Assembly: GCA_903834475.1 (NCBI GenBank)
Contig: CAILJH010000053.1
Location: forward strand, 1 to 42,833
Source of the DNA: an uncultured Prolixibacteraceae bacterium
GTDB taxonomy: Bacteria > Bacteroidota > Bacteroidia > Bacteroidales > Prolixibacteraceae
DNA length: 42,833 nt
Direction: 5' to 3'
Part shown: in pieces, positions 21,852 to 42,646 of the stretch
Layout: each line of letters begins with the position of its first letter
How positions within the stretch are numbered: position 1 is the stretch's first letter
The notes under the pieces: model-generated
The model's database searches: none
Seen by the model: the letters and a program-made list of their open reading frames with translations, nothing else
What the model was told of the DNA's origin: nothing
Program-made: the position numbers and the translations under genes

Positions 21852-21877
21852 GATTCGAACTGTTTTTAAAGTCAATA

Positions 21878-22150
21878 CTACCTTTCCAGATATATATATC
21901 CTGCTTTATGCTTTTGAAGTTGAATACCGTAATCAAGAACATAAAAATATGTTCCAACCGACAAGGCTGAGCTTCCTACAGTATTCTTATTGGAATTGCC
22001 TTCCCAGTCGTTTAGATATCCGGATTTTTGATAAACCACATTTCCCCAGCGGTTAAATATAGTCAGCTTGCTTGTCGGATAAAATTCAATCCCTTCAATA
22101 TGGAATGTATCATTCTGTCCATCGCCGTTCGGTGTGAAAATTTGATTTAC
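21878..22150 (-). other. T9SS type B C-terminal sorting domain of the giant adhesin
   Basis: The last 90 or so residues carry FTPNGDGQND, KLTIFNRWGNVVYQK, a WEGN variant of the usual WDG, GTYFYVLDY and the final KAGYIYLER. This is the gliding motility-associated C-terminal (CHU_C-like) domain that directs export through the type IX system. Confidence 0.92.
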
Positions 22151-25100: not shown

Positions 25101-28100
25101 ATATCAATTACCTTAATGGTTACTTTGGCCTGGTCACAGAGTACAGGGCTGCCGTTATCACAAACTTCGTAAACAAAAACATCAATTCCTGAAAAACCTG
25201 AATTTGGAGTATAGGTATAAGTTCCATCCGGATTAATCACTACAGTTCCATAAGTCGGAGGAATAGCCGGTTTGGTGCTGATCGTCAGTACATCGCCTTC
25301 AGGATCACTGTCGTTGGTCAGCACATTGCCACTTACTTTTATATTTTTAAAGGTAGTATTGATGTCATCTTCGGCCACCGGAGGATCATTTTGCGGAGCA
25401 ATAATCAGGTAAACATTCGCCAGATCACATGCTTGCGGAGTTCCATTATCGCAAACCTGGTAGACAAACTGATCGGTTCCAAAGTAATTTGGCGCAGGAG
25501 TATAAATAAACGTACCGTCTGAATTCAGAATAACTGTCCCATGCTTTGGAGAAACGACCGGGTTAGTATTCACCGTTTGGATGTTTCCCTGAGGATCATT
25601 GTCATTAGCTAAAACATTCCCTGTTATCGGTTTGTCTTCCTTTCCAAAGTAGCTGTCATCCGTAGCAAAAGTTGAATTTTTTTCAGGATTAGCCAGTATG
25701 TCAATTGTTACGGTGGCGATATCGCAAAGCGGAGGTGATCCCAAATCACATATGCGATATTCAAAACTTACCCGACCGATGAATCCGGCATTCGGAATAT
25801 ATGTAAAAATCCCGTTTGCATTCATAGTGAATGATCCATTGTTCGGATCCAATCCGATGACAGTTACACTATTCATGTTCAGGTTACCGTCCGGATCAAA
25901 ATCATTACTGATAACGTTTCCTTTTACCGGTAATCCGACAGAACCCTGATAGGCATCATTAACGGCTACCGGATTATTGTTTGCACTGGTATAATCAATT
26001 ACCTTGATGGTCACTTTGGCCTGAGCACATAAGGAAGGAATACCGTTATCGCATATTTCGTATACGAAGCTGTCGGTTCCGGAGAAACCTGAATTTGGAA
26101 TATAGGTATAGATTCCGTCCAAACTAATTATCACAGATCCGTGTGCAGGTGAACTGACCGGACTTGTTTTAATGGTGATAAGGTTACCGTCCGGATCACT
26201 GTCGTTGGTAAGGACATTGCCGCTTACCTTCAAATCCTTAAATGTGGTGTTAATGTCGTCCATTGCGACCGGTGGATCATTAACAGGTGTTACGGTTATT
26301 TGAACTGTCGCGCCTGCACAATCATTGTCGATATCACACAAAAGGTAAATGAATGTATCAGTTCCTGTAAAATTTGCATCAGGGGTATAATTGTATTTTC
26401 CATCTGCGCTCATGGTAACTTTGCCGTGTGAGGCTCCACCAAAAGTGCCAAAGAGGCTCCATTTATTTCCGCCATCTCCGCTTGGTATATCATTGGCAGC
26501 AACCGTTGCACCAATGATTGGAGTGTCTTCTAAAGTCGAATTGACATCATCCTCAGCTAACGGAATATTATTTACTGAACTTAAAAAGATCGTTACCCTG
26601 GCCTGATCACAGTCACCATCAGAATCGCAAAGCTGATAGATAAAATAATCAGTACCGTTGAAATTGGCTTTCGGAATATAATTATAAGTACCATCTGGGT
26701 TCATCGTAACCGTACCATTTGCAGCACCGCCATTCACTCCAACTAAACTCCAGGCATTGCCGCCATCACCGCTGGGGATATCATTGCCCGTAACAGATGC
26801 TCCAATAATCGGAACATCTTCCAAAGTTGTAATGACATCATTGACCGCTACCGGCAAGTCATTGACCGCTGTAATGGTAATGCTCACGATCGCCTGATGG
26901 CAATCTCCGTCAATATCGCAAAGCTGATAAGTAAAACTGTCATTTCCATGATAATTAGCATTCGGAATATAATTATATATGCCATTGGAGTTCATCGTTA
27001 CACTGCCATGAATTGCTCCGCCATTTGTACCAACCAGGCTCCATACATTGCCGCCATCACCACTCGGTACATCATTGGCCGCAACATCTGCGCCGATAAG
27101 CGGAGTATCTTCAAGAGTTGTATTCAGATCATCGTTGGCAAATGGCAGATCATTAACCGGAATAACATATATCGTTACAGTTGCCACAGAACAATCAGGA
27201 GTTGGATCACAGATTGAATAGGTAAAACTGTCGTATCCATTATAATCAGCATTTGGTGAATAAACAACCTTGTCATCTGCAGGATTATTTGGAGTACCAC
27301 CATCATTGACATAAACAGTTCCGTGTAAGCCGTTATTCGCAGTTATTCGTCCTGTCGAAGGCCCGTCATCTCCAAAAATATCATTGACAAGTACTTCGAT
27401 GGTAATCGGCGTATCTTCCAGTGTCGTTGCAGAATCATCGGCAGCAACGGGATAATTTTCATCATCTATAATCGTACCGGTGGCCGTATCGCTTGTATTG
27501 CCAGCAGTTCCTGAATCAACTGATTTAACGGCGATGGTAAAGGTTTCGTCCTTTTCATCAATTAAATCCTGAATCGTTGGAACAACAACATTGATGCCGA
27601 CAGAACCAGCTGGTATGGTTACAGTAACATTTGCAGTATTATAATCGGTGTTACTTGCAGTACCGTTGGTCAACCCAAATGTCAGGGAAATGTCGCTGGA
27701 ACTTGGATTACTCAAAGTTACCGGGAAGATTACATCACTACCTTCAGTGGCACTGGCATCTGCAATTGTAACTGATGGAGCAGCATCATCATCCAGAATT
27801 GTACAAATACCTTGTGAAACAGAGATAGTACCATGATCAGGATTTGAAAGGTTCACATAGAAATTCTCGGTCGGTTCATAAATAGTATTGTTCGTGATTG
27901 GAACCGAAACAGTTACTGAGCTTGAACCTCCCGGTATGGTGTACACCACATTATTTATGGAAGTATAATCAGAAGTAGAAAGTGCAGTATTGTCGGTAGT
28001 GTTTACAGTGAACGAAACATCGCATGTTCTCGGATTGCTTAGGCTGACCGTGAAAACAGCATTGCCGTCATTTTCGTGTACCGATATGTTACCGATTGAA

Positions 28101-31100
28101 AGTACCGGAGCATTGGTGTCAGTCACAGTTACTGTTGCATCGCAGCTTGAAAAATTATCACTGTTATCAGTTACAGTTAAGGTTACATGGTTTGCGCCAA
28201 TATCAGAACAAGTGAATGAAGTTTTGGAGGCAACAACCGACTTAATTCCGCAATTGTCGGTGCTGCCGTTATTGATATCAGCAGCATTTAATGTGGCATT
28301 GCCAGATAGATCCAAATTAAGAGTCACATTTTTGCAAATAGCAACCGGTTTTTCATTGTCAGTAACTTTTACATTCTGAACACAATTTTCAGAAACATTT
28401 CCGGCTGCATCAGTTGCAGTCCAGGTGATGGTTGTAGTTCCGACCGGATAAACCGCTGATAAAGCCAGTACATCCGAACGAACACCCATAACAGATATTG
28501 ATGCCGAACAATTGTCAGTTACAGTCGGATTAACTATCGTGACTGATGCGCCGCAAACTCCAGCCACAGCTGGCAAGGTAATCTGAGCAGGGCAGATTAT
28601 CACTGGTTTTTCGTCATCAGTTATGGTCACAGTCTGATTGCAGCTTAATGATGTATTTCCTGCCAGATCAGTAGCAGTCCAGGTAATTGTTGTAATTCCA
28701 ACCGGATAAACCGATAATAGAGTCAAGGCGTCTGAACGAACTCCGGCAAAAATAAAGCTTGATGAACAATTATCCGTTGCAGTTGGATTTGAGATGAAGA
28801 CCGAAGCTCCGCAAACTCCTGAATCAGAAGTCTGAATAATATCTGACTTACAAACAATGGTTGGTTTCTCTTTATCTGTTATGGTGACAGTCTGGTTGCA
28901 GCTCAATGAGGTATTTCCGGATGCATCGGATGCAGTCCAGGTAATTGTAGTGATTCCTACCGGATAAACTGCGGATAAAGCCAATGCATCCGAACGAACT
29001 CCTGCAAAAGTGAAGCTTGTCGAACAATTATCTGTAGCCATAGGATTTGCAATTGTCAATGCTGCACCACAAACTCCCGCATCGGCTGTTTGGGTGATAT
29101 TTGCCGGACAAATGATTACTGGTTTTTCATGATCAGTAACAGTAATCGTTTGATCGCAACTCAATGAGCTGTTTCCTGATGCATCCTTAACAGTCCAGGT
29201 GATGGTAGTATTTCCTACCGGATATAAAGCATTCAGTGCCAATAAATCCGAACGGACTCCAATAAAGGTAAACGATGACGAACAATTGTCAGTTGCCGTT
29301 GGATCAACAACAGATAATGAAGCGCCGCAAGCTCCGGCATCGGCTTCAAGCGTGATATTTTCAGGGCAATTTATTACTGGTTTTTCATCATCTGTTATTC
29401 GCACAGTTTGATCGCAACTTAATGAGGTATTTCCTGCCAGATCGGTTGCAGTCCATTTAATGGCAGTGATTCCAACCGGATAAACTGCAGATAAGGCCAG
29501 AGCATCCGAACGAACTCCCGAAAAAGTAAAGCTGGTTGAACAATTGTCAGTTGCTGTTGGATTATCTATGGAAACTGAAGCCCCGCAAACTCCGGTGTCG
29601 GCTGTCTGTATAATATTTGCAGGACAGACAATAACTGGTTTCTCATTGTCAGTTACAGTAACAGTCTGGTTGCAACTCAATGAGGTATTTCCTGAAACAT
29701 CAGTTGCAGTCCAGCTAATCGTGGTAATTCCCACCGGATAAACTGCGGACAAAGGCAATGCATCCGAACGAACTCCCGCAAAAATAAAGCTTGTTGAACA
29801 ATTATCTGTTGCGGTAGGATCGGTAATAGTCAGGGCAGCACCGCAAACTCCGGTATCGTTTGTTTGGGCAATATTTGCCGGACAACTGATTACAGGTTTT
29901 TCATGATCAGTAACTGTTATCGTTTGATCACAACTCAACGAGGTGTTTCCTGCGGCATCAGTTGCAGTCCAGGTGATGGTCGTATTTCCAGTTGGATATA
30001 ATGCGTTCAGTGCTAATAAATCTGAACGAACTCCGGTAAAAGTAAAGATTGAAGAACAATTGTCGGTAGCTTTTGGAGGAGTGATAGTTACCGAGGCCTG
30101 GCAGGCGCCGGCATCGGTGTTTTGAGTGATATAATCAGGACAAGTAATGACCGGCTTTTCGTCATCAGTTATTGTAACAGTCTGCGAACAACTTGCTGAA
30201 GTGTTTAAAGCCGCATCGGTTGCAGTCCAGGTAATTGTTGTGATTCCAACCGGATATACCGCTGATAAAGCCAAAGCGTCCGAACGAACTCCGTTGAAAG
30301 AAAAACTCGTTGAACAATTGTCGGTTGCTGTTGGATTAACAACTGTAACAGCAGCTCCGCAAATTCCGGCATCTGCTGTTTGCAAAATATTGTCAGGACA
30401 AATAATAACAGGTTTTTCATCATCTGTTACAGTAATAATCTGATCACAAGTTAAAGAAGTATTTAAAGCTGCGTCAGTGGCAGTCCATGAAATCGTAGTT
30501 GTTCCAACCGGATAAACATCATTCAGTGCCAAGGCATCTGAACGAACTCCTTTAAAAATAAAGCTTACCGAACAATTGTCAGTCGCTGTTGGATTGGATA
30601 TTGAAATTGCTGCACCGCAAACTCCCGCATCGGATGTTTGAGTAATATTTGCAGGACAGATTATTACTGGTATTTCATTATCTCTAATGGTAATATTAAA
30701 ACTGCAGGTTTTAGTGCCGCAGGTATTTGTTGCGGTGATGACAACGGTAGTAACTCCTGTATTAAACACTGAACCGCTCCCCGAACCGGCACCACTGCCT
30801 GTGGTCGATCCCGTGAATAAATAGGTAACTCCAGGATCTGGCACTCCGGATGTAACAGCTGAATAAGAAACCATTGCACTACACAGATTTAATTCAGTAT
30901 GTTGCAAAATATCTGAAGGACAGGTGGTAAATACTGGTTCCTGATTTACTGAAACTGAAGTCGTGGTTGAACTACAGCCGGTAATTGTATTTGTAAAAGT
31001 AAAGTTTACCGTTCCTGAAGATAATCCGCTTACAATTCCTGAATTAGTTACTGTTGCGACTGCATTATTGCTGCTGCTCCATGTTCCACCTGTTCCAGGT

Positions 31101-34100
31101 GATAATGTGATAGTGCTTCCAACACATACGGAAGCTGGAGCCGAAACAACCGGTAATGGGTTTACATTTACCAGGACACTTTGCGAATCAGAACAACCCG
31201 TGGCGGTTATCGTTTCAACTATCGTGTAGTTTGTTGAAACCGAAGGATTCACTGTTGGATTGGCCAAATTGGAGGTAAACCCAAGCGGTGAAGAAGTCCA
31301 GCTATATGTACTTCCTGAAACAGGCAATGCTCCAAGAGTTGTGCTTGATCCAATACAGATCGTCCGGTCTGATCCGGCGATTACACCAGGCAATTTATTG
31401 ATGGTTACCGATTGTGTTGCGCTTGTGGTTCCACATAATCCGGTCGAAGTAGCAGTAATAATTGCAATTCCGTCATAAGATGCCGACCAGTTCATGACTC
31501 CGGTAGAGGAATTGATTGTCCCTGCTCCGGCTGGTGAAACACTGTAAGTTATAGCTGTACTATTGGCCGAGATGGCAGTATAAGTCTCATCTGCAGCATT
31601 CTGACAAAGCGTTGTTGCACCAGCTGTAAAACTGGTAGTCCCGGTAGATGGATTTACTGTTACTGTTCGTGTTGCACTGCTTGTTCCACATAATCCGGTG
31701 GCATTGGCAGTGATCGTTGCTGTTCCGCTGAACGAGGCAGACCAATTCATAAGCCCGGTGGACGAATTGATTGTTCCTGCTCCGGCTGGTGAAACACTAT
31801 AAGTTATTGATGTACTATTGGCTGCTGTGGCAGTATATGTTTCATCAGCTGCGTCCTGACATTCGGTGATTGCACCGGCAGTAAAGCTGGTTGAACCAAT
31901 GGTAGGATTTACTGTAACTAAACGGTCTGCATGGGTTGTTCCGCAAGATCCGCTTGCAGTAGCTGTGATGGTAGCAGTTCCGCTGAATAAGGCTGACCAA
32001 TTCATGACACCTGTTGATGAATTAATTGTCCCTGCACCGGCTGGTAAAACGCTATAAGTTATTGACGAACTGTTTGCTGATGTTGCGGTATAAGTTTCAT
32101 CAGCAGCATCCTGACATAAAACAATGGCACCTGCAATAAAGCTGGTTATTCCAGTGGTTGGAGTCACTGTGACTGCACGATCGGCAAAGGTGGTACCGCA
32201 CAAGCCGATAGCAGTGGCTCTCACTGTAGCTGTTCCGCTAAACGATGCGGACCAGTTCATAACCCCGGTGGAGGAATTAATTGTTCCGGCTCCTGCCGGT
32301 AAAACACTATAAGTTATAGAGGTGCTGTTGCTTGAAGTTGCAGCATAAGTTCCGTCAGCCGCATCCTGACATTCTGTTGTTGAACCAGCTGTAAAGCTTG
32401 TCGCACCGGTGGTTGGATTTACAGTAACTACACGATCTGCCTGAGTTGTTCCGCACAAACCAGTGGCGGTAGCCGTGATTGTGGCAGTTCCGCTGAAAGA
32501 GGCCGACCAGTTCATTACCCCTGTAGAAGAATTGATTGTTCCAGCTCCGGCCGGTAAAACGCTGTAGCTTATGGATGTACTGTTCGCCGCTGTGGCAGAA
32601 TAAGTTTCATCAACAGCATCCTGACATTCGGTGATAGCACCGGCAGTAAAACTGGTTGCACCAGTTGTTGGATTTACAATGACAACACGGTCAGCAAAGC
32701 TTGTACCGCACAAACCGTTAGCTGTGGCTCTCACCGTGGCAGTTCCACTGAAAGAGGGTGACCAGTTCATCACACCGGTGGAGGAATTGATTGTTCCTGC
32801 TCCCGCCGGTGAAACGCTATAGCTTATCGAAGTGCTGTTTGCTGCAGTGGCGGTATAGGTTTCATCGGCTGCATCCTGACATTCAGAAATTGATCCGGCT
32901 GTAAAGCCAGTAATCCCCGTACTTGGATTTACTGTTACAACACGGTCGGCAAAGGTACTACCGCATAATCCGGTAGCTGTAGCTCTCACTGTGGCTGTTC
33001 CGCTGAATGAGGCCGACCAGTTCATTACTCCGGTTGAGGAATTAATAGTACCTGCTCCTGCCGGTGAAACAGAATAACTTATTGAAGTGCTGTTTGCTGC
33101 CGTGGCAGTGTAGGTTTCATCAGGTGCATCCTGACATTCAGAAATTGATCCGGCAGTAAAGTTGGTTGTACCAATGGTAGGATTTACAGTCACTATGCGG
33201 TCTGCATGGGTTGTTCCGCATAATCCGGTGGCTGTTGCAGTAATCGTAGCTGTTCCGCTGAACAATGCCGACCAATTCATTACGCCGGTAGTTGAATTAA
33301 TTGTTCCTGCTCCGGCAGGTGAAACGCTGTAAGTTATTGAAGTATTGTTAGCTGCTGTTGCGGTATAAGTTTCATCGGCAGCATCCTGACATTCAGAAAT
33401 TGCTCCTGCGGTAAAGGTGGTTGGTCCGGTAGTTGGATTTACAATGACAACACGGTCGGCAAAGGTTGTACCGCACAAACCGTTAGCTGTGGCTCTCACT
33501 GTGGCTGTTCCGCTGAACAATGCTGACCAGTTCAGAATTCCGGTAGATGAATTAATTGTTCCTGCTCCGGCTGGTGAAACACTGTAAGTTATTGAAGTGT
33601 TGTTAGCTGCTGTTGCAGTATAAGTTTCATCAGCTGCATCCTGACAAACAGTGGTTGCTCCGGCTGTAAAACTGGTGGTACCAGTGACTGGATTTGAGTT
33701 GATTGTTATTGAAGTACGTGTACTGCTCTTGCAATTTGTTGTTGAATTTCTTGCTTCAGCATAATAAACTCCTGCAGAAGCCGGAGTATAACTTAATGTA
33801 CCCGTTGCCAATGCGGTTCCGCCGGAAGGCACATTATACCAATCTACAGTTATTCCGGAAGAAACACTTGCTGTAATTGCCGGAACTGAACTCCCCACGC
33901 AATATTCCTTATCCCCGCCACTAAGCGGAGCAGAAATAACCGGACAACTGCAATCTGGAGCTGTAATCGATAATGTTGTGGCACAACTTACAGCGTCTGT
34001 AAGAGTAAGTACAATATTCGTACCCGTTGGAACAGCACTTACTGTCCACAAATTGCCTACATGATTGACAGTTCCCGAAGTACTTGTTACTGTTCCTGAA

Positions 34101-37100
34101 CTCACAGTTACACTAACCGAATAAGTTAGCAGATTTAATGCACAGGTTGCCGGAGAAGCGATCACCATGGTAGGCAATGGATTTACAGTAACCGGATAGT
34201 TGGTAGCGATTGCTGCAGTACATCCGTTTCCATTCGTATAATTAACTGATACACTTTGGGCACCAGTATTATCCCATGTTACAGTTACTGAATTATTGCC
34301 GGTTCCGCCTCCGGAAGTAATTGTTCCACCGGCTGAAACATTCCATTGATAATTGCTCATACCAGCCTGAGTAGTATAAACATTTCCGGTTGAAGCCTCG
34401 CAAACAGTTGCTGGTCCGCCTGTGAAAGTTACGACTGGCAAAGGGTTAACTGTAATTGTTGCACTTCCGGTCATATTGGATGTACATGAACTTGAAGTAT
34501 TGGTCGCAACCACAGTATATAATCCGGCAGTAATTTTGTTGCCAAAACTAATTGCACTTCCTGTTCCGGTTACCGGACTTCCAGAATTAACACCACTCAG
34601 TTGCAACTGATAATTTACCCCGGTTTGGGAATTGCTTAAACCAACTGCTATACCCGATGCGCCAGTACAGAATGATCCGCCACCGGTCACATTATAGCTT
34701 AGTGGCAATGCACTTACTGTTACGTTGTAAATAGTCGGAGTGATTGCAGTACAAGCGTTTCCATTGTCATAATTAACCGAAACGCTTTGCGATCCGGCGG
34801 TGTTCCATGTCACAGTTACCGAATTATTACCGATTCCTCCTCCGGAAGTAATCGTTCCCCCTGCTGAAACAATCCAATCATAGTTGCTCATGCCAGCCTG
34901 TGTGGTATAGACATTCCCTGATGAACCGGCGCATACGGATGCAACTCCGGCAGTAAATGTTACCGTGGGTAATGGATTAACTGTAACCGATGCAGTTCCG
35001 GTCATATTTGAGATACATCCGGTTGAAGCATTGGTTGCTTCGATGGTGTAAGTTCCGGCAGTAAGCTGGGAACCAAAATTTATTGCACTCCCGTTACCTG
35101 CGATTGGTAATCCGGTATTGACTCCACCAATATGCAATTGATAATTGATTCCGGTTTGTGAATTACTTAAGCCTACAGCGACTCCTGAACCTCCGGCACA
35201 AAATGAACCGCCTCCGGTTACTGTGTATATAGTTGGTAATGGATTTATTGAAACACTCACGCTGCCTGTCATGATAGAATTACAAGATGTTGAAGCATTG
35301 GTCGCAACAACGGTATAGGTTCCGGCACTTGACTGGGAACCAAAGCTGATTGCAGAAGCTGTACCTGCAACCGGACTTCCGGTATCTGATCCATCAATCC
35401 TTAACTGATAATTTACTCCAACCTGAGAATTACTCAAACCTACAATAACTCCTGAACCACCACTGCAATACGATCCACCTCCGGTTACATTATACGTTAA
35501 AGGAAGAGCAGTTACAGTTACAGTAATGTTTCCATTCATATTCAAAATACAACCGGTAGAGGCATTGGTTGCTTCGATCGTGTATGTTCCGGCAGTAACC
35601 TGTGCACCAAAATTTAAGGCACTACCTGTACCTGAAATTGGTAATCCGGTATTTACACCTCCGATATGTAATTGATAATTTACTCCCGTTTGAGATCCAC
35701 TTAAACCGATAATTACACCTGAACCTCCGCTGCAATCCGTTCCACCACCTGTTGCATTAAAGATTGTGGGTAATGAATTTGTGCTAATACTAACACTTCC
35801 TGTCATAGTCGAGGTACATCCGGTTGATTCAGTTGTAGCAACAACGGTATATGTACCGGTAGCAGTCTTGACACCAAAGCTCAGTGCACTACCGTTACCA
35901 GCTATTGCAGAACCATCATTTACTCCGCCAAGTTGTAACTGATAGTTGACCCCGGTTTGCGAATTACTCAAACCTACTGCTGCACCTGAACCTCCGCTGC
36001 AATAGGTACCGCCTCCGGTTACAATGTAAGCTGTGGGCAATGGATTTATGGTGACAATCGCAGTACCTGTCATATTTGATGTACAGCCGGTAGAAGAATT
36101 CGATGCAATCACTGAATAAGTTCCGGCAGAAGTTTGAGCACCAAAACTTATTGAACTGCCGGTTCCGGATACCGGACTGCCGGTATTTACGGCTCCAATC
36201 TGCAACTGATAGTTGACTCCGTTTTGAGAACCAGTCAAGCCGATAACCACTCCGGATCCACCACTGCAATAGGAACCACCTCCGGTTACTGTATAAACTG
36301 TTGGCAATACGTTAACCGTAATGGTAACACTTCCAGTCATATTTGCGATACAAGCTGTTGTAGCATTGGTAGCTATTACAGTATAGTTGCCTGCAGCAGT
36401 CTGCGTACCAAAGCTTAATGTAGCGCCAGTGCCAGCTATCGGACTTCCTGTGTTTATACTATTTAGTTGCAATTGATAATTTACTCCGCTTTGCGAATTG
36501 CTTAAACCAACTGCTAATCCGGATCCACCACTGCAAAATGATCCGCCACCGGTAACATTGTAAGCCGTGGGTAAGGGATTGATGCTCACTGTTGCACTGT
36601 TATTCATACTTGAACTGCAGCTTGTTGTGGCATTTATTCCAACAACAGTATATGTACCGGCGGCTGTCTGCAAGCCAAAGCTAATTGCACCTGCAGTTCC
36701 TGCTACTGGCAGACCGGTATTAACTCCGCCGATCTTTAGTTGATAATTAACTCCGACCTGCGAATTACTTAAACCTATTGAAACGCCAGTTCCACCTGAA
36801 CAATAGGATCCGCCTCCTGTCATATTATAGACAGTGGGCAGCGGATTCAAAGTAATGGTCACACTGCCTGACATTGTTGAAGTACATGTTGTTGTGGTAT
36901 TCGTTGCAACTACGGTATAGGTTCCTGCACCAGTTTTATTTCCAAAACTGATCGCACTACCGTTACCTGTAACCGGAGTTCCGTTATCTGAAACGCCCAG
37001 CCTTAACTGATAAGTGACTCCTGTTTGTGAACCACTTAAACCGACAACAACTCCTGAACCTCCGGTACAATCAGTTCCACCACCGGTTACCGTATACAAA

Positions 37101-40100
37101 GCTGGCAACGGATTTACAGAAACAGTTGCGCTTCCGCTCATATTTGAAGTACAACCCGTTGAAGCATTAATTGCTGTAACAGTATAAATTCCGGCACCAA
37201 TCTTATTTCCAAAACTAATGGCATTGCCGGTTCCGGCTATTAAGCCACCGTTATCAACACCAGCTAATTGCAACTGATAATTTACTCCTACCTGAGAATC
37301 ACTCAATCCGATGGCAACTCCGGAACCACCACTGCAATAAGAACCGCCACCCGTTACAGTATAAACTATCGGTGAAGCATTAACTGTTACAGGATAAACT
37401 GTTGCACTTGCAGATACACATCCGCTAACATTCATATAAATTACCGAAACGCTCTGAGGACCAGCAGTATTCCAGGTTACGGTCACACTATTATTTCCAC
37501 TTCCACCTCCGGATGTAATTGTTCCACCTCCGGAAACCATCCACAGATAACTGCTCATACCGGATTGTGTGGTATAAGTATTTCCGGTTGAACCTTCGCA
37601 TGCGGTACTTACACCAGCGACAAAAGTAATTACGGGTATTGGATCAATAATTACAACAGTACTTCCTGACATATTGGAACTACACCCAGATATTGGATTG
37701 GTAGCAACAACAGTATAAGTTCCGGCAGATAACTCTAACCCAAAACTTAGCGCGCTTCCTGTGCCTGCCAATGGCAGTCCGGCATTCGTTGCACCAATTT
37801 TTAATTGATAATTGACTCCGGTTTGAGAGTTACTCAATCCTACAGCTACACCTGATCCTCCGTTGCAATAATTTCCGCCTCCAGTAACATTATAGACAGA
37901 AGGAAGTGGGTTAATTGTGATAATCGCACTTCCTGTCATAGTCGATGTACAACCGGTAGTTGCATTTGTTCCAACAACGGTATAGGTTCCGGCAGATAAC
38001 TGTAAGCCAAAACTTAAAGCACTGCCGGTTCCGGCAACTTCAGCACCAATATTTGATGCTCCTAATTTTAACTGATAATTTATTCCAATTTGTGAACTAT
38101 TCAGAATTATCGAAACGCCAGTTCCTCCAGTGCAGTATGATCCACCACCGCCAACAAAATATAAATTGGGTAATGCATTCACTGTTACCGGGTAAACAGT
38201 AGCACCCGCTGCGGCACATCCGGTTCCATTCGAATAATTCACCGAAACGCTTTGAGCTCCTGAGGTATTCCAGGTAACCGTCACTGTATTATTTCCTGAT
38301 CCACCTCCGGCTGTAATCGTACCTCCGGCTGAAACAGTCCATACATAATTACTCATTCCAACCTGGGTGGTATATACATTTCCTGTTGAACCTGCACATG
38401 CGATTGGCACTCCTGAAATAGTAACCACGGGTAAAGGATTAATGCTTAGATTGACAAATCCTGTCATATTTGCGGTACATCCTGTGGATGTATTGGTTGC
38501 CACAACAGTATATGTTCCGGCAGCAGTCTTGTTTCCAAAACTTAGTACACTTCCGGTTCCGGCTATCGGACTACCGGTATTTACGGCACTAATTTGTAAT
38601 TGGTAGTTTACCCCAACTTGCGAAGCACTCAATCCAACAGGTAAGCCGACACCTCCACTGCAATAAGCTCCTCCTCCGGTTACACTATATAGCGTGGGCA
38701 GTGCATTAACATTGATAGTCCGGGTTCCATTTACAGCTGGACAAATTCCGGGAACATTTGTTGTTAATGTCAAAGTAACTGTTCCTGAAAAATTTGCTGC
38801 CGGAGTATAAGTTACTGCAGCCGGAGTAGCAGTCTGTGCAATACTGCTTAATGCGCCACCACCGGTAGATATGGACCAAGCTGAAGTACTGGCTGAACCA
38901 CCGAAGCTTGCACCGCTTAAGATTATTGCTGATGGGCTGGATGACTGACAAGTGTTAAGGGTTACACCTGGAGTCACGGTAGCAGCAGCATTTACAGTAA
39001 TTGTAAAAGTCTGATCGGCAGATTTGTCAACTCCTCCGTTGGCAGTACCTGCATTATCCTGAATATTTAATGCAATGGTTGCCGATCCTGAAGTTGAATT
39101 TGGAGTAAAAGTTAATACTCCTGAAGAACTTACTGATGGTTGAACACTAAAAATTGAAGAATTACTATTGCTGGTAATATTAAATAACAGTGATTGGGAA
39201 GATTCGTTGGCTGGCCCGGAGCTAATTGCAGTAGCCCATGAATTAACTGTCTGAGCACCAATTGCCACACATACGGTTTGATCAGCACCAACAGTAAACG
39301 ACGGAACATCGTTCACCGGAGTAACAGTAACAATGATAGTAGCAATATTGGAGGCTACGCCCTTATTATCCTGAACGGTATAATTTACTGCAGTTGCTGT
39401 TCCGTTAAAATTCAACACCGGAGTAAAAGTGACTAATCCTGAAGAATTAACCGAATAAGTACCTTGATTTACAACGGTAAAAGTAGTTTGAATTCCGGCT
39501 GTTGCAGGATCCAGATCGACAGTCGCCACATTAACAGTTCCGTCGGTATCGTAATCATTCGTTGTAACATTAAAACTTACAGGACTATCTTCGTTTGTGG
39601 TTGCAACATCGTTCACGGCGATTGGAGCCTGGTTCGCCCATAGATAGAATTCATCAATACCACTGGTTGGCAATAAATTAGTCAGGAGATTTCCGGAGTT
39701 ATCTACCAAATTGTTTGTAGCTGCCAAATCAATTCCGAGATAATCCCAATTAGTTGAAGGAATATTGGAAACCCGAATTGTATAAACCGAAGCTCCAATT
39801 TGGGTCACCTGCGAGATCAATGTCCCCACTCCACCTAATCCACTGGTCTGGAAATCATCAGCAGTAATATTTTGAGTTACAGGTTCGCTGAAAGTAAGTT
39901 TGAATTCCACCCAACCCTGAAGAAGCAGGTCGCTTGATGAAACAGATTGAGCTGTAGGATTAAAACGTTCGATTGAAGTCAGCGTGGGCGGTATGTTATC
40001 CATCCCCAATGAAGTATCAATCACTAATTCAGAAAAAGTTGGATCATAAAGTACCGCACCATCGCTATACGTAACCCAGGCCACCACATCGTATATGCCA

Positions 40101-42646
40101 TTAGGCAATACATTAGTTGTCAGGCTCCAGTTGCCATTACTGTATACCAATCCAGATAAAGTGGTATAGGTAACTCCATTCACTTTCACACTCATGGACG
40201 TCACTGTAACGGCAGGAGAGCCGGCCACACTGTTGCCATAAGTTCCAGTCAATGTAGGTGTGGTATCAGCTGTTGTTGCAGGGTTAACTGTTGGTTCAAC
40301 ATAGGTCTTGCCGGAGGCAAAAGCAGGTCCCGGACTAAAATCCAGGTAAAAATAAACTGTGCTGCTATTGGCCACATCACCCATCTTTATCCCGAATGAG
40401 CTAATTGCAGCATACAGTGCCTTCACCCGGTACTTGTCTGAAGTTGCGCTTCCATTGGCAGCAATGGTAGCATTAAATCCATCATTTACTCCATCGGTGT
40501 TCTGAAAATGAACAAAATTGGAGCCCATATTTGTTTGTGAAAGCGTCGTATTCGTAGCAATAGTATACTGAGCAAAACCGCCAAATTCCTGAAATTGAAA
40601 TTGGTTCGCACCCGCAGCATCAATATCCCAGGAGTTTAGTGAAACATTTTGAAGGATAACTCCTGATCCGGCATGGGTGGTTGCATTGTAAGTACCATTC
40701 TTGATAAAGTCAATCCTGAACTCGGCATTTCCACCGGCTGCAGTTGTTACCATGTCCGTCTCAAAAAAATTCGTGTTAACAGGAGAAGAAACACCGGTTT
40801 CATAACCGTTTATAGTAATATTGGTCAAGGCAACCGTAGTAATAATTGCATCAATAGCTTGTCCATTGACAGTAATAATATGATCAAACAGAACGATATC
40901 GCCAACGACTTTACCAGTTCCAACTTTCGCTGTAGAACTATTAAATAGTAAAGGATTATTATTTACATTATAAACAGGAAGTGAAGTGCTTACATAAAAT
41001 CCGACGAAAGCAACCACTTTGTTCAATGAAACATCCTGGATGTCATTTGCAGTTCCTGAAGGAGTATATGAAAGCAATGCATTGACACTTGTACTTACAG
41101 ATGTGCCCAGGGTTAGAGTAATCTCATTCGTTGTAGAATTAACTGCCACAGCAGTAACCGAAATTGGCAATCCGCTTTGAGTCAAAACAAAGTTGCTTGT
41201 CAAAGGAACAGATGTTGATTTTAATCCTGAACCAGTTTCTGTGAAGGCCAAAGTAAGAATATTTCCACCCGCTGAGGCTTTATTTGGAATTGGAGCAGTC
41301 TGGTCAATGATCGTTAAAGCCAATTGTGCTGTTGATACACCCGTATTTCCGGCGACATCAATGATATTTGCCGTTAGATTATGAACACCAAGTGCGAGTG
41401 TACTCAGGGTAATGTTTTGTGTGGTACGGTTCCATGTGCCGGCAGTAAGATCACCTGCAAGAATGGCATAAGAACCAACAACTAAATTGCCATTGCTGGC
41501 GTCGAAAATCTGAACTGTTTCGCCGGCAGAAAGACCGGAAACTCCAGTTAAATTCAGACTTACAACAGGCTTGTTCACATTGGTAATATTGTCAAGAAGG
41601 CTTCCGGAATTGCTTCCAGGGGTAAGAATCAATGGAATAGATGCCAAACTGGAAGGAACTGTGGTATCAATTGTTATTGTTTTTGTGGCAAACTGACCAG
41701 TTGCAATAACGGTATTACTTGTATTTATAACAATGGTATGGTTTCCACTCGTTAATGTTGTCGCAGTGTAGTTATACGTCCAGGCAACGTTGGTCTGATT
41801 TGCAGAAACTGTAATTGCTCCTTTGTAAAGGTTGTCAACCCACAAATATAAATTGTTCGTTCCACCGCCGGAAGTATATAAACCACCAAAAATCAAAGTC
41901 TGATCGCTGGTAATAAAATCTGTACCACTAATTCCGGTATCTGTAGTGATCGAAGTAATAGAGGCAGTAGTCACCGCAAGCAAATTCGGATAATCTGATA
42001 GATTTAATGAACTGGCCTTCAATTCACCACCTGAATTTATTGCTTCCAATTCCCAGTTACCACCCAAAACTGAAGCACCAGTAAAATCTTCTGAAGCCGC
42101 AACATCAGCACCTGTTAGTTGGCTAAGTTCGTTGATGAAATCGTGACCTGACTTACCTTGAGCCACATTACATCCATAAAGAAGCAAATCGCCTATGTCA
42201 GAAAGACTTTGGCCCCAAGAGGTTAATTGCGAGCTATAGCTGTCAATGGTATGGCTTGAAAGTGATGCGTTTCCAAGTCTTATTAAGCCGGTAGAACCAT
42301 GCGAAACGATATGGATTGCAGTAAGATTATTTCTGTTTTTAAGAATATTTGTGATTTGCTGAACTCCATCAGTGCTTTTCTCCAGACAGATAATCTCAAT
42401 TCCGTTATGGGTATCACTGATCAGCGAATTAATATCTGTAACATTACCATCAATAAAGAGAATCTCGTTAAAACCAGACTCAGAAACCATCTTGTCAGGA
42501 GAATTGCCGGCAATAGATATTGATTTATCTCGTCCGCCAGGTTCAAAGGCAATCGATCGTGAAAATACATTGTTCGATAACATCATGAAGAAAATACTTG
42601 CAGTGAAGTATTTCCAAATCAAATAAAAGTTCATCATATTTTTCAT
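21878..42646 (-). CDS. Giant multidomain surface adhesin with T9SS type B sorting domain and N-terminal DUF4347
   Basis: A 6,922-residue exported protein of roughly 0.7 MDa (estimated), uninterrupted through 20.8 kb. In order: signal peptide (about 1-29); DUF4347 (61-222) with His116 and Cys159; Ig-like and Swm-like domains, one cadherin-like domain and more Ig-like material (to about residue 1317); 13 TGGGxYCSGG repeats with four PKD-like domains; two Ig-like domains; nine 85-residue CQDAADE repeats; Ig-like, Big_2-like and one degenerate HYR-like segment; nine exact 86-residue HYR repeats plus one degenerate copy; two Calx-beta domains; 18 cadherin-like domains with DPDGN-type calcium sites; and a gliding-type C-terminal domain (PNGDGQND, NRWGNVVY). 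It resembles SprB-class adhesins: T9SS-exported, calcium-stiffened surface fibres for attachment or gliding. PorP/SprF-like and PorE-like genes follow directly. It differs from known SprB mainly in its DUF4347 domain. Confidence 0.95.
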   Translation of the reverse strand: MKNMMNFYLIWKYFTASIFFMMLSNNVFSRSIAFEPGGRDKSISIAGNSPDKMVSESGFNEILFIDGNVTDINSLISDTHNGIEIICLEKSTDGVQQITNILKNRNNLTAIHIVSHGSTGLIRLGNASLSSHTIDSYSSQLTSWGQSLSDIGDLLLYGCNVAQGKSGHDFINELSQLTGADVAASEDFTGASVLGGNWELEAINSGGELKASSLNLSDYPNLLAVTTASITSITTDTGISGTDFITSDQTLIFGGLYTSGGGTNNLYLWVDNLYKGAITVSANQTNVAWTYNYTATTLTSGNHTIVINTSNTVIATGQFATKTITIDTTVPSSLASIPLILTPGSNSGSLLDNITNVNKPVVSLNLTGVSGLSAGETVQIFDASNGNLVVGSYAILAGDLTAGTWNRTTQNITLSTLALGVHNLTANIIDVAGNTGVSTAQLALTIIDQTAPIPNKASAGGNILTLAFTETGSGLKSTSVPLTSNFVLTQSGLPISVTAVAVNSTTNEITLTLGTSVSTSVNALLSYTPSGTANDIQDVSLNKVVAFVGFYVSTSLPVYNVNNNPLLFNSSTAKVGTGKVVGDIVLFDHIITVNGQAIDAIITTVALTNITINGYETGVSSPVNTNFFETDMVTTAAGGNAEFRIDFIKNGTYNATTHAGSGVILQNVSLNSWDIDAAGANQFQFQEFGGFAQYTIATNTTLSQTNMGSNFVHFQNTDGVNDGFNATIAANGSATSDKYRVKALYAAISSFGIKMGDVANSSTVYFYLDFSPGPAFASGKTYVEPTVNPATTADTTPTLTGTYGNSVAGSPAVTVTSMSVKVNGVTYTTLSGLVYSNGNWSLTTNVLPNGIYDVVAWVTYSDGAVLYDPTFSELVIDTSLGMDNIPPTLTSIERFNPTAQSVSSSDLLLQGWVEFKLTFSEPVTQNITADDFQTSGLGGVGTLISQVTQIGASVYTIRVSNIPSTNWDYLGIDLAATNNLVDNSGNLLTNLLPTSGIDEFYLWANQAPIAVNDVATTNEDSPVSFNVTTNDYDTDGTVNVATVDLDPATAGIQTTFTVVNQGTYSVNSSGLVTFTPVLNFNGTATAVNYTVQDNKGVASNIATIIVTVTPVNDVPSFTVGADQTVCVAIGAQTVNSWATAISSGPANESSQSLLFNITSNSNSSIFSVQPSVSSSGVLTFTPNSTSGSATIALNIQDNAGTANGGVDKSADQTFTITVNAAATVTPGVTLNTCQSSSPSAIILSGASFGGSASTSAWSISTGGGALSSIAQTATPAAVTYTPAANFSGTVTLTLTTNVPGICPAVNGTRTINVNALPTLYSVTGGGAYCSGGVGLPVGLSASQVGVNYQLQISAVNTGSPIAGTGSVLSFGNKTAAGTYTVVATNTSTGCTANMTGFVNLSINPLPVVTISGVPIACAGSTGNVYTTQVGMSNYVWTVSAGGTITAGGGSGNNTVTVTWNTSGAQSVSVNYSNGTGCAAAGATVYPVTVNALPNLYFVGGGGSYCTGGTGVSIILNSSQIGINYQLKLGASNIGAEVAGTGSALSFGLQLSAGTYTVVGTNATTGCTSTMTGSAIITINPLPSVYNVTGGGNYCNGGSGVAVGLSNSQTGVNYQLKIGATNAGLPLAGTGSALSFGLELSAGTYTVVATNPISGCSSNMSGSTVVIIDPIPVITFVAGVSTACEGSTGNTYTTQSGMSSYLWMVSGGGTITSGGGSGNNSVTVTWNTAGPQSVSVIYMNVSGCVSASATVYPVTVNASPIVYTVTGGGSYCSGGSGVAIGLSDSQVGVNYQLQLAGVDNGGLIAGTGNAISFGNKIGAGIYTVTAINASTGCTSNMSGSATVSVNPLPALYTVTGGGTDCTGGSGVVVGLSGSQTGVTYQLRLGVSDNGTPVTGNGSAISFGNKTGAGTYTVVATNTTTTCTSTMSGSVTITLNPLPTVYNMTGGGSYCSGGTGVSIGLSNSQVGVNYQLKIGGVNTGLPVAGTAGAISFGLQTAAGTYTVVGINATTSCSSSMNNSATVSINPLPTAYNVTGGGSFCSGGSGLAVGLSNSQSGVNYQLQLNSINTGSPIAGTGATLSFGTQTAAGNYTVIATNATTACIANMTGSVTITVNVLPTVYTVTGGGSYCSGGSGVVIGLTGSQNGVNYQLQIGAVNTGSPVSGTGSSISFGAQTSAGTYSVIASNSSTGCTSNMTGTAIVTINPLPTAYIVTGGGTYCSGGSGAAVGLSNSQTGVNYQLQLGGVNDGSAIAGNGSALSFGVKTATGTYTVVATTESTGCTSTMTGSVSISTNSLPTIFNATGGGTDCSGGSGVIIGLSGSQTGVNYQLHIGGVNTGLPISGTGSALNFGAQVTAGTYTIEATNASTGCILNMNGNITVTVTALPLTYNVTGGGSYCSGGSGVIVGLSNSQVGVNYQLRIDGSDTGSPVAGTASAISFGSQSSAGTYTVVATNASTSCNSIMTGSVSVSINPLPTIYTVTGGGSFCAGGSGVAVGLSNSQTGINYQLHIGGVNTGLPIAGNGSAINFGSQLTAGTYTIEATNASTGCISNMTGTASVTVNPLPTVTFTAGVASVCAGSSGNVYTTQAGMSNYDWIVSAGGTITSGGGIGNNSVTVTWNTAGSQSVSVNYDNGNACTAITPTIYNVTVSALPLSYNVTGGGSFCTGASGIAVGLSNSQTGVNYQLQLSGVNSGSPVTGTGSAISFGNKITAGLYTVVATNTSSSCTSNMTGSATITVNPLPVVTFTGGPATVCEASTGNVYTTQAGMSNYQWNVSAGGTITSGGGTGNNSVTVTWDNTGAQSVSVNYTNGNGCTAAIATNYPVTVNPLPTMVIASPATCALNLLTYSVSVTVSSGTVTSTSGTVNHVGNLWTVSAVPTGTNIVLTLTDAVSCATTLSITAPDCSCPVISAPLSGGDKEYCVGSSVPAITASVSSGITVDWYNVPSGGTALATGTLSYTPASAGVYYAEARNSTTNCKSSTRTSITINSNPVTGTTSFTAGATTVCQDAADETYTATAANNTSITYSVSPAGAGTINSSTGILNWSALFSGTATVRATANGLCGTTFADRVVIVNPTTGPTTFTAGAISECQDAADETYTATAANNTSITYSVSPAGAGTINSTTGVMNWSALFSGTATITATATGLCGTTHADRIVTVNPTIGTTNFTAGSISECQDAPDETYTATAANSTSISYSVSPAGAGTINSSTGVMNWSASFSGTATVRATATGLCGSTFADRVVTVNPSTGITGFTAGSISECQDAADETYTATAANSTSISYSVSPAGAGTINSSTGVMNWSPSFSGTATVRATANGLCGTSFADRVVIVNPTTGATSFTAGAITECQDAVDETYSATAANSTSISYSVLPAGAGTINSSTGVMNWSASFSGTATITATATGLCGTTQADRVVTVNPTTGATSFTAGSTTECQDAADGTYAATSSNSTSITYSVLPAGAGTINSSTGVMNWSASFSGTATVRATAIGLCGTTFADRAVTVTPTTGITSFIAGAIVLCQDAADETYTATSANSSSITYSVLPAGAGTINSSTGVMNWSALFSGTATITATASGSCGTTHADRLVTVNPTIGSTSFTAGAITECQDAADETYTATAANSTSITYSVSPAGAGTINSSTGLMNWSASFSGTATITANATGLCGTSSATRTVTVNPSTGTTSFTAGATTLCQNAADETYTAISANSTAITYSVSPAGAGTINSSTGVMNWSASYDGIAIITATSTGLCGTTSATQSVTINKLPGVIAGSDRTICIGSSTTLGALPVSGSTYSWTSSPLGFTSNLANPTVNPSVSTNYTIVETITATGCSDSQSVLVNVNPLPVVSAPASVCVGSTITLSPGTGGTWSSSNNAVATVTNSGIVSGLSSGTVNFTFTNTITGCSSTTTSVSVNQEPVFTTCPSDILQHTELNLCSAMVSYSAVTSGVPDPGVTYLFTGSTTGSGAGSGSGSVFNTGVTTVVITATNTCGTKTCSFNITIRDNEIPVIICPANITQTSDAGVCGAAISISNPTATDNCSVSFIFKGVRSDALALNDVYPVGTTTISWTATDAALNTSLTCDQIITVTDDEKPVIICPDNILQTADAGICGAAVTVVNPTATDNCSTSFSFNGVRSDALALSAVYPVGITTITWTATDAALNTSASCSQTVTITDDEKPVITCPDYITQNTDAGACQASVTITPPKATDNCSSIFTFTGVRSDLLALNALYPTGNTTITWTATDAAGNTSLSCDQTITVTDHEKPVISCPANIAQTNDTGVCGAALTITDPTATDNCSTSFIFAGVRSDALPLSAVYPVGITTISWTATDVSGNTSLSCNQTVTVTDNEKPVIVCPANIIQTADTGVCGASVSIDNPTATDNCSTSFTFSGVRSDALALSAVYPVGITAIKWTATDLAGNTSLSCDQTVRITDDEKPVINCPENITLEADAGACGASLSVVDPTATDNCSSSFTFIGVRSDLLALNALYPVGNTTITWTVKDASGNSSLSCDQTITVTDHEKPVIICPANITQTADAGVCGAALTIANPMATDNCSTSFTFAGVRSDALALSAVYPVGITTITWTASDASGNTSLSCNQTVTITDKEKPTIVCKSDIIQTSDSGVCGASVFISNPTATDNCSSSFIFAGVRSDALTLLSVYPVGITTITWTATDLAGNTSLSCNQTVTITDDEKPVIICPAQITLPAVAGVCGASVTIVNPTVTDNCSASISVMGVRSDVLALSAVYPVGTTTITWTATDAAGNVSENCVQNVKVTDNEKPVAICKNVTLNLDLSGNATLNAADINNGSTDNCGIKSVVASKTSFTCSDIGANHVTLTVTDNSDNFSSCDATVTVTDTNAPVLSIGNISVHENDGNAVFTVSLSNPRTCDVSFTVNTTDNTALSTSDYTSINNVVYTIPGGSSSVTVSVPITNNTIYEPTENFYVNLSNPDHGTISVSQGICTILDDDAAPSVTIADASATEGSDVIFPVTLSNPSSSDISLTFGLTNGTASNTDYNTANVTVTIPAGSVGINVVVPTIQDLIDEKDETFTIAVKSVDSGTAGNTSDTATGTIIDDENYPVAADDSATTLEDTPITIEVLVNDIFGDDGPSTGRITANNGLHGTVYVNDGGTPNNPADDKVVYSPNADYNGYDSFTYSICDPTPDCSVATVTIYVIPVNDLPFANDDLNTTLEDTPLIGADVAANDVPSGDGGNVWSLVGTNGGAIHGSVTMNSNGIYNYIPNANYHGNDSFTYQLCDIDGDCHQAIVSITITAVNDLPVAVNDVITTLEDVPIIGASVTGNDIPSGDGGNAWSLVGVNGGAANGTVTMNPDGTYNYIPKANFNGTDYFIYQLCDSDGDCDQARVTIFLSSVNNIPLAEDDVNSTLEDTPIIGATVAANDIPSGDGGNKWSLFGTFGGASHGKVTMSADGKYNYTPDANFTGTDTFIYLLCDIDNDCAGATVQITVTPVNDPPVAMDDINTTFKDLKVSGNVLTNDSDPDGNLITIKTSPVSSPAHGSVIISLDGIYTYIPNSGFSGTDSFVYEICDNGIPSLCAQAKVTIKVIDYTSANNNPVAVNDAYQGSVGLPVKGNVISNDFDPDGNLNMNSVTVIGLDPNNGSFTMNANGIFTYIPNAGFIGRVSFEYRICDLGSPPLCDIATVTIDILANPEKNSTFATDDSYFGKEDKPITGNVLANDNDPQGNIQTVNTNPVVSPKHGTVILNSDGTFIYTPAPNYFGTDQFVYQVCDNGTPQACDLANVYLIIAPQNDPPVAEDDINTTFKNIKVSGNVLTNDSDPEGDVLTISTKPAIPPTYGTVVINPDGTYTYTPNSGFSGIDVFVYEVCDNGSPVLCDQAKVTIKVIDISGANNAPVAINDSYQGSIGLVVKGNVISNDFDPDGNLNPNSVKLIGSAPASGSLTLNSNGTFVYVPAAGFLGQVRFVYQICDLGTPALCDMATVTIEILANPNGNSTFATDDLFFGKEDNPITGNVLTNDNDPQGDIQTVNTSAVALPAHGTLVLNANGTFTYTPAPNYWGQDHFVYEVCDSGTPKACDQASVYLIIAPQNNPPVAMDDINTTFKGESVIGNVLTNDSDPDGNLLILKIAPAVNPLNGTVVINPDGTYTYTPKSGFSGTDSFVYEVCDNGTPSLCDQAKVTIKVIDLSGVNNPPVAMNDAYQGSIGLPVKGNVISNDFDPDGNLNPNSVTLIGSAPATGTLTLNVNGTFTYIPLAGFLGQVSFQYQVCDLGTPALCDIATVTIEMQANPNGNSTFATDDSFVGNEDNPISGNVLSNDYDPQGDVQKVNTSPIVSPSHGTLILNSNGTFKYVPVPNYNGTDHFAYEVCDNGTPTACDQATVYLIIKPFNDAPIAKDDIAITFKDKPVSGNLLTNDSDPEGDPLSIKTNLVNLPAHGVVIINPDGIYTYTPNSGFIGNDSFVYEVCDNGIPSLCDQATVSIKVIDITIAPNSAPIANNDVYQGSVGYPVKGNVISNDFDPDGNLNPNSVILLGSAPVNGSLTLNPNGTFTFIPLADFIGQVSFQYTVCDLGTPALCDVAKVTIDILPNPTGNSTFATDDIFFGREDVVLTGNVMTNDNDPEGNTQSVNTSPVIQPIHGGLKLNSNGTFIYTPDANYNGLDRFVYEVCDNGMPTACDQATVYLILAPGNDVPFAIDDVNSTDEEVAVSGNVSTNDTPSSDGGNVWTIVSQPGHGELLFNPDGTYTYSPELNYNGIEKFIYKLCDIDGDCSDATVSITVRSINDLPVANDDTVSFHIDAVLESTVAENDILSGDGGNIWSIVTPPANGTLVFNTNGTYTYTPNLSFTGTDGFTYELCDANGDCDQAKVTITINDVIVVNQIFTPNGDGQNDTFHIEGIEFYPTSKLTIFNRWGNVVYQKSGYLNDWEGNSNKNTVGSSALSVGTYFYVLDYGIQLQKHKAGYIYLER
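22151..27454 (-). repeat. 18 cadherin-like domains of the giant adhesin
   Basis: Eighteen tandem domains of about 95-105 residues. They typically open with PVAxDD or FATDD, continue with NDxDPxG calcium-binding loops, then GTxxxNPDGTYTYxPNxxFxGxDxFxYxVCD and end in an xATVxI strand. Every copy has a pair of Cys around the CDxGxPxxCD turn. The first four and last two contain a PSGDGGN insert in place of DPDGN. Confidence 0.9.
22709..26275 (-). repeat. Four copies of a three-domain (about 892-bp) super-repeat
   Basis: Within the cadherin-like array, domains 5 to 16 are four copies of an ordered triplet: type 1 opens (P/A)P(V/I)AxDDI, type 2 opens with NDxYQGS and DFDPDGNLN, type 3 opens STFATDD and NDxDPQG or DPEGN. 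Equivalent landmarks (the STFATDD codons) lie near 22,990, 23,883, 24,774 and 25,665, spaced about 891-895 bp. The total is 3,567 bp, 1,189 codons. Confidence 0.9.
28355..30676 (-). repeat. Nine HYR repeats of 86 codons (258 bp)
   Basis: Nine tandem HYR-type domains, each EKPVIxCPxxI...GVCGA...ATDNCS...GVRSDxLAL...YPVGxTTIxWTATD...SLSCxQTVTITDD. The block is exactly 9 x 258 bp. Each copy has four Cys. A degenerate tenth copy follows (opening EKPVAICKN) and a degenerate one precedes it. Confidence 0.92.
31391..33685 (-). repeat. Nine 85-codon (255-bp) repeats with CQDAADE motif
   Basis: Nine tandem copies of TGxTSFTAG...ECQDAADETYTATAANSTS followed by YSVSPAGAGTINSSTGVMNW and a GLCGTT turn. 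The block is exactly 9 x 255 bp, with two Cys per copy. Copies are nearly identical (most differences are single residues), indicating recent duplication or gene conversion. I do not recognise a named domain with confidence; the fold is probably Ig-like. Confidence 0.9.
34172..38695 (-). repeat. Thirteen 90-codon TGGGxYCSGG repeats with four PKD-like domains
   Basis: Thirteen copies of an Ig-like repeat of about 89-90 residues (VTGGGSYCSGGSG, LSNSQxGVNYQL, GTYTVVATN, TGCTSNMTG). PKD-like domains (CAGSTGNVYTTQ, GMSNYxW, TVTWNTAG) lie after copies 1, 3, 12 and 13. Each TGGG copy has two Cys. Both types occur in other large Bacteroidota T9SS adhesins. Confidence 0.88.
41981..42466 (-). other. 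DUF4347 domain (caspase-like His/Cys pair) of the giant adhesin
   Basis: Residues 61-222, just after the signal peptide. The core pattern is a beta strand ILFIDGNV, then IHIVSHGSTG with His116, a GNASLSSHTI segment, and DLLLYGCNVAQG with Cys159, then LTGADVAASEDFTG and GGNWELE. The HG and C positions fit the His-Cys dyad of caspase-like (clan CD) peptidases. Activity is not shown; the family is recognised mostly at the N-terminus of large bacterial surface proteins. Confidence 0.8.

Follow-up and report, generated by a model that had tools for sequence, protein, structure and literature searches.

Type B substrates of the type IX secretion system (T9SS) are collected by a cognate PorP/SprF protein, which is often encoded directly downstream; they are thought to be anchored by PorP/SprF, sometimes via PorE to the peptidoglycan (PMC9143113; PMC12618676). 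In clan CD (caspase/haemoglobinase fold), the C80 domains of MARTX and clostridial toxins cleave themselves (PMC4357240, PMC12445089). A DUF4347 protein has also been solved: chain G of PDB entry 9qpe, named DUF4347 domain-containing protein, is Tce1 (PA0256) of Pseudomonas aeruginosa, located inside Hcp3 rings; the authors of the 2026 publication regard it as a putative cysteine protease because it resembles the TcdB protease domain (PMC13323088). PA0256 had earlier been described as containing an uncharacterised DUF4347 domain (PMC8262886). In the parts of the literature covered by our search, cleavage was demonstrated for no DUF4347 protein. Here we analysed the DUF4347 domain at the N-terminus of a 6922-residue T9SS type B surface adhesin, which is encoded in a 42,833-nucleotide stretch (the window) of an uncultured Prolixibacteraceae bacterium (GenBank assembly GCA_903834475.1, contig CAILJH010000053.1). 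The domain has a predicted clan CD fold and a conserved His/Cys dyad; with slightly better than even confidence, we propose that it is a competent peptidase, making limited cuts from a surface-anchored T9SS type B fibre.

The window spans one entire contig (C53); the draft genome to which it belongs measures 3.6 Mb and is 66% complete. The adhesin frame is intact, it begins with ATG at 187 bp from the contig end and contains no internal stops. The features of its N-terminal part are as follows.

21878..42646, reverse strand: T9SS type B surface adhesin gene, 6922 aa (open frame; conservation of residues 1–1340 in an orthologue)
42560..42646, reverse strand: hydrophobic N-terminal segment, probable Sec signal peptide, residues 1–29 (sequence inspection and hydropathy)
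41984..42463, reverse strand: DUF4347 domain, residues 62–221 (PF14252, 182–188 bits; AlphaFold2 model)
42299..42301, reverse strand: His116, putative catalytic histidine, context IHIVSHGSTGL, just past strand 3 (sequence, AlphaFold2 model, conservation)
42170..42172, reverse strand: Cys159, putative nucleophile, context LLLYGCNVAQG, just past strand 4 (sequence, AlphaFold2 model, conservation)
41978..41992, reverse strand: aromatic-x3-Leu tail, Tyr219 to Leu223, closing the domain in most relatives (81-row alignment)

Positions 1–162 of the 164-position PF14252 profile cover residues 62–221; because the score, 182.4 bits, is far above the cut-off of 24.6 bits (E = 7.3e-54), the match is not a chance one. 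A preliminary description of this DNA had drawn the feature at 41981..42466, corresponding to residues 61 to about 222. His116 (in SHG) and Cys159 (in YGC) are exactly where it placed them, 43 residues apart in the 6922-residue protein. It also put the domain right after the signal peptide; the domain is indeed near the hydrophobic N-terminus, but a linker of ∼30 residues separates the two. Compared to seven stand-alone relatives described below, whose maximum 12-residue hydropathy is 2.31–3.09, the adhesin N-terminus is weaker (1.56).

As proposed in that description, the structure of residues 55–230 was predicted, and the AlphaFold2 model has a predicted local distance difference test (pLDDT) score of 93.6 and a predicted template modelling score of 0.90. 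Its core elements follow the order β1-α1-β2-α2-β3-hairpin-α3-β4, which is the order of caspases and haemoglobinases as given in PMC4357240. The sheet contains five clear strands, together with short bridges and a hairpin; the clan CD criterion is at least six strands. In model numbering, the His is located two residues past strand 54–60 and the Cys two residues past strand 94–103, matching the clan CD placement, and clan CD chains are present among the solved-structure matches to the model. The earlier suggestion of clan CD resemblance is thus borne out by predicted fold, dyad placement, structural matches and conservation, and the modelled domain almost certainly belongs to this fold.

A PDB sequence search with the single domain found nothing, and a search with a 22-row profile matched 9qpe_G at an E-value of 0.064. 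The E-value alone is insufficient; the match is convincing because the fold comparison agreed. Apart from 9qpe_G, these PDB searches gave no significant sequence match to a clan CD chain; the other profile matches listed (designed barrels, PCNA and pilin) were read as chance. Via Tce1, the DUF4347 fold has published structural support and has thus already been observed. Different from the window domain, which is part of an adhesin, Tce1 is a soluble cargo of the type VI secretion system (T6SS) packed in Hcp3. The two domains share 16% identity, and the aligned range stops short of the aromatic-x3-Leu tail; the His-Cys spacing is 54 in Tce1 (His186 and Cys240), compared to 43 in the window domain. 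Like the window domain, the clan CD families C80, C11, C14, C13 and CHAT possess this fold order and His/Cys placement, but in the searches made, unlike 9qpe_G, they gave no significant sequence match to it. CHAT (PF12770) was rejected as a sequence relative, since its hhalign probability of 0.4 of 100, over 13 columns round the His motif, is not significant. C80 was not among the 50 VIA rows listed, which excludes nothing.

To assess the dyad, we used 73 rows found by profile and not by motif, all from the phylum of the window (the window, L002, 29 loci, two extra tandem copies and 40 fetched places). The set omits four fragments and two sub-threshold matches of the 78 phylum-sample places, and L003, one of the dyad-less proteins, is outside it because it failed the E-value filter. 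His is present in 72/73 rows (L028 has Tyr) and Cys in 73/73; Gly190 and Gly196 are each conserved in 72/73, and Trp198 in all 73. In a second alignment (A2; the window and 80 named loci of several phyla), 80 of the 81 rows carry the His (L068 has Asn) and 81/81 the Cys, but the loci were found by patterns containing SHG or YGC, and it is therefore not an unbiased test of conservation. Identity to the window domain is 38–48% in this set, i.e. the domain is otherwise divergent. The dyad is also retained, by eye, in the weak relatives L160–L165, L171 and L175.

The second genome of the genus (G021) encodes a truncated orthologue in which adhesin residues 1–1340 are conserved, with a ratio of nonsynonymous to synonymous substitution rates (dN/dS) of 0.06–0.19 in 4/7 segments. 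The DUF4347 segment 62–201 shows 81% identity and a dN/dS of 0.19. The flanks are relaxed: dN/dS is 0.87 in the linker before the domain, and in the tail after it the identity is 38% and dN/dS is 0.68. Residues 202–340 of the window protein (41627–42043) are 38–41% identical to the orthologue, compared to 81–93% on both sides, and look like an exchanged module. Judging from sequence and model, it is reasonably probable that the DUF4347 of the adhesin is catalytically competent. The preliminary description called for His/Cys conservation to be checked across DUF4347; it holds among the profile-found rows, but both residues are lost in a stand-alone side branch of the window's order.

This branch consists of proteins of 142–159 residues that have a hydrophobic N-terminus and are related to DUF4347, with both dyad motifs gone. 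Their genes are located at:

L034:3939-4388, stand-alone dyad-less DUF4347 gene
L181:7015-7494, the same
L182:7055-7528, the same
L183:2413-2862, the same
L184:4768-5202, the same
L185:9540-9992, the same
L194:1498-1926, the same

Six of the proteins exceed the Pfam cut-off with 31–47 bits, in a scan that covered all but L194. A profile of six stand-alone proteins found 7/393 genomes of the order, in seven different families, and also the window domain at 2.5e-14; the match in a ninth genome, G870 (9.5e-4), is inside a long transporter-like frame and was dismissed as chance. In 7/7 loci, the stand-alone gene is located 9–42 bp upstream, on the same strand, of an open reading frame (ORF) whose start resembles that of exported surface proteins. 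The downstream ORFs are 328 to 2,832 residues in size as seen, most of them cut, and they are split into two in L183 and L185. Domain scans, which covered the loci other than L183 and L184, identified an MBG domain and a weak NIDO match in L034 and eight MBG_2 stretches in L182, and no NCBIfam match in L194. The second ORF of L185 has a type B domain at its C-terminus (53.8 bits), and a PorP/SprF gene (254 bits) comes next; the long frame of G931 terminates in a marginal type A match (26 bits, cut-off 23). These are the two loci in which the end of the downstream frame is reached, T9SS-type in both, and the remaining five run off the contig or stretch. By sequence, the same domain family is fused to the N-terminus of a T9SS fibre in the window and separately encoded just before such genes elsewhere; the stand-alone dyad-less gene beside surface-protein genes is new here.

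Because the dyad-less relatives adjoin surface-protein-like genes in every locus, a role of this kind needs no catalysis. DUF4347 could then be a non-catalytic cap, placed at the end of the fibre for binding or stabilisation, with a dyad that is a relic or serves in binding; we consider this doubtful, although several observations weigh against an active peptidase. Both dyad residues are lost in the seven stand-alone relatives and also in L159, and since a side branch in the window's order lost both, the family is not always catalytic. In addition, the growth of E. coli or yeast was not markedly affected by Tce1 expression; the toxicity that an active-site change relieved was that of Tce2, a different protein (PMC13323088). 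Pseudo-orthocaspases provide a precedent for caspase-fold lineages with a replaced dyad, though they are a separate family with Tyr/Ser replacements (PMC6426788). Against the cap, the near-invariant dyad of the 73 profile-found rows is kept in a domain that otherwise diverges, and the dyad-less rows form one clade of their own, separate from the window, with a Shimodaira–Hasegawa-like approximate likelihood ratio test (SH-aLRT) support of 98, though on long branches. In the same tree, the window and its orthologue pair at 98 and are nested among dyad-bearing domains mostly of other phyla (87–88, modest). A recent common origin of the fused domain and the stand-alone genes was rejected, as the tree separates them (98, 98; 87–88), although the branches are long. 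The root is a midpoint one, and the tool warns of long-branch joins. The nesting is consistent with horizontal acquisition of DUF4347 by a T9SS fibre.

A scan of named genomes found at least 586 stretches encoding DUF4347 relatives, and the best 80 were kept; they come from Cyanobacteriota, Pseudomonadota, Planctomycetota, Chlorobiaceae and others. ORF features of these were called with regular expressions from the first start codon, and as many frames are cut, the counts are lower bounds. Like in the window adhesin, DUF4347 is near the N-terminus in most of them, inside the first 200 residues in 77/80 ORFs. Two or more RTX-type motifs were found in 26/80, a LEPR motif in 16/80, and a signal-peptide-like start in 4/80. 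The RTX-type and LEPR motifs point to export routes other than the T9SS, whose domains were not systematically sought in these relatives. The commonest companion families, in the 60 of the best 80 that were scanned (over a stretch of 700 residues), are Big_9 (9), RTX repeats (8), Cadherin_5 (6) and L-type lectin (4). Joint transfer of DUF4347 with Big_13/SWM is unsupported, with Big_13 in 1/60 relatives and SWM outside the 25 families listed.

Near the window, the domain is rare. It occurs in 5/395 genomes of the class (188 bits for the window itself, 77 for the next best), in 9/393 of the order (next best 47 bits) and in 3/61 close relatives; in the phylum sample, the domain was matched in 33 genomes, 28 of which are members of a single family (f42). 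In a different family of this phylum (f48), 2/92 genomes have DUF4347, and one protein of 1,201 residues (L176:2394-5999) carries it at 90–253 and ends with a T9SS type A sorting domain (47 bits versus 23 for TIGR04183; 41 versus 27 for PF18962). The fusion with a T9SS domain is therefore not unique. The second f48 protein is cut by the contig end and shows no sorting domain.

Several other arrangements were observed. DUF4347-like domains occur as two and three tandem copies with GHG/GC-type motifs in L173:3025-6192 and L174:2974-6345 (ORFs of ∼1,100 aa, with similar neighbouring ORF clusters), and tandem DUF4347 near the N-terminus, with a divergent first copy that keeps the dyad, was seen at L025:1501-1959 and L029:1501-1959 and the preceding copies. 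The RHS-repeat protein of L175:24-3362 ends in a DUF4347-like domain, in the place where such proteins usually carry a variable effector domain. L066, from a metagenome-assembled genome of a Methanomassiliicoccales archaeon, has a gene for a DUF4347 protein that starts with a strongly hydrophobic segment and contains RTX-type motifs, possibly by mis-binning. Plasmids of Escherichia (19 records), Citrobacter (8) and Hafnia (matches H13–H20) encode an Ig-like protein that contains DUF4347. The single-protein query matched no viral contigs, and the DUF4347 profile matched three.

The N-terminal position and the end of the domain bear on self-processing, a reading that partly overlaps with limited cutting: DUF4347 would clip its own chain during export, as C80 does, and the mature fibre would lack the domain or be trimmed. 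C80 domains of the same clan do self-cleave, and the domain is within the first 200 residues in nearly all relatives. Outside the Tce1 match, the aromatic-x3-Leu tail is conserved: of the 81 aligned rows, 78 have Tyr/Trp/Phe and 75 have Leu. In C80, autocleavage triggered by inositol hexakisphosphate occurs after Leu, and the window domain has the conserved Leu223; however, the next residue is Pro in 12/81 rows, which makes a poor cut site. The tail is also poorly conserved between the two orthologues (38%) and confidently modelled (pLDDT 92 for block 161–170), and it may simply be structural. Fixed self-cleavage after Leu223 is disfavoured by the Pro and by linker divergence, and because the linker there is poorly conserved, so is any single fixed cut just after the domain. 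Overall we regard self-processing as unlikely.

The C-terminus of the adhesin and its neighbours comprise:

21881..22150, reverse strand: T9SS type B sorting domain, TIGR04131/CHU_C (profile matches)
20904..21875, reverse strand: PorP/SprF-family shuttle/anchor (TIGR03519, 282 bits, cut-off 90.55)
18673..20889, reverse strand: OmpA-domain protein resembling PorE and CHU_0125 (384 and 452 bits, under the curated cut-offs of 600 and 620)

The type B assignment made earlier is sound: the C-terminus matches TIGR04131 (57.1 bits, cut-off 35) and PF13585 CHU_C, a PorP/SprF gene is directly downstream, with a gap of 2 bp when the listed start codon is used, and the genome contains the SprA translocon gene (2684 bits). 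The genome has five TIGR04131 matches including the adhesin, 4/5 of them over the cut-off. The PorP/SprF neighbour is presumably the cognate shuttle of the adhesin. Like the window, the SprB/SprF system of Flavobacterium johnsoniae consists of a giant repetitive type B substrate and a PorP/SprF gene directly downstream; different from it, the window locus has a PorE-like gene next in order. A PorE-like neighbour is postulated to mark non-mobile type B proteins (PMC9143113), which would fit the window locus. Type B proteins are described as anchored to PorP-like partners by their C-terminal domain (PMC9143113), which implies far-end display, as the preliminary description suggested; for the window protein it is by this analogy that distal display of DUF4347 on the fibre is likely.

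In the working that we infer for topology, activity and substrate, the adhesin would be exported by Sec, as its N-terminus suggests, and then translocated by SprA. By analogy with Porphyromonas gingivalis and F. johnsoniae, the type B C-terminal domain would hand it to the PorP-like protein encoded next door, which would link it to the PorE/OmpA-like protein on the peptidoglycan. The N-terminal DUF4347 would end up distal, with His116 and Cys159 most likely as a working cysteine-peptidase dyad, and it may make limited cuts in a surface partner; this could be its own fibre, one next to it, or a cell or matrix that the fibre touches. In proteins of the type I secretion system kind, the N-terminus is the cell-proximal end. 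Among the relatives, the place of DUF4347 in the chain is therefore constant and its distance from the cell is not, a pattern that speaks for action on the N-terminal region of the chain that bears it, or for a generic activity, rather than for a role determined by position alone. A contact-dependent warhead, i.e. a tip protease acting on touched cells, has DUF4347 in T6SS cargo and in the RHS protein of L175 on its side, but an anchored fibre has no evident delivery route into the target, and we consider it very unlikely.

Between the DUF4347 domain and the sorting domain, the adhesin is made up of repeats:

41060..41629, reverse strand: Big_13 and SWM Ig-like modules, residues 340–529 (Pfam)
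27647..33646, reverse strand: slice with nine HYR stretches and one Calx-beta domain (Pfam)
22151..27646, reverse strand: slice with 18 Big_9/cadherin-like repeats, tandem-95 (Pfam and NCBIfam-type profiles)

PKD/Ig repeats (Pfam) come after the Big_13/SWM modules and before the HYR part. Elsewhere in the window, inspection by eye identified a frame of at least 2,052 aa (2–6160) with many PAS-like units and with histidine kinase and receiver regions at its end, followed by a response regulator/kinase (6187–7806).

Taken together, the observation in the preliminary description is confirmed and its interpretation partly supported: fold and dyad are well supported, display at the tip is likely, and activity is putative. 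Large surface proteins of many phyla start with DUF4347, but little has been written about it: in the literature searched, the name occurs in four papers and the accession PF14252 in none, and no test of an adhesin-borne DUF4347 was found. The predicted clan CD arrangement of the window domain, in which the dyad is intact, makes a concrete experiment possible (Cys159Ala), and the dyad-less stand-alone gene adjoining surface-protein genes offers a second handle on the role of the family. Tentatively, with well below even confidence, DUF4347 may be an accessory module of T9SS fibres in two forms, one fused and dyad-bearing (in the genus of the window, and with a type A domain in another family) and one dyad-less, exported on its own and encoded directly ahead of the fibre gene; together, they would be a (pseudo)protease partner dedicated to the N-termini of giant adhesins, which they would escort, cap or process. 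Whether this poorly known domain cuts or caps is now testable, and if both forms act on fibre N-termini, a missing component of the building or trimming of Bacteroidota surface fibres would be revealed.

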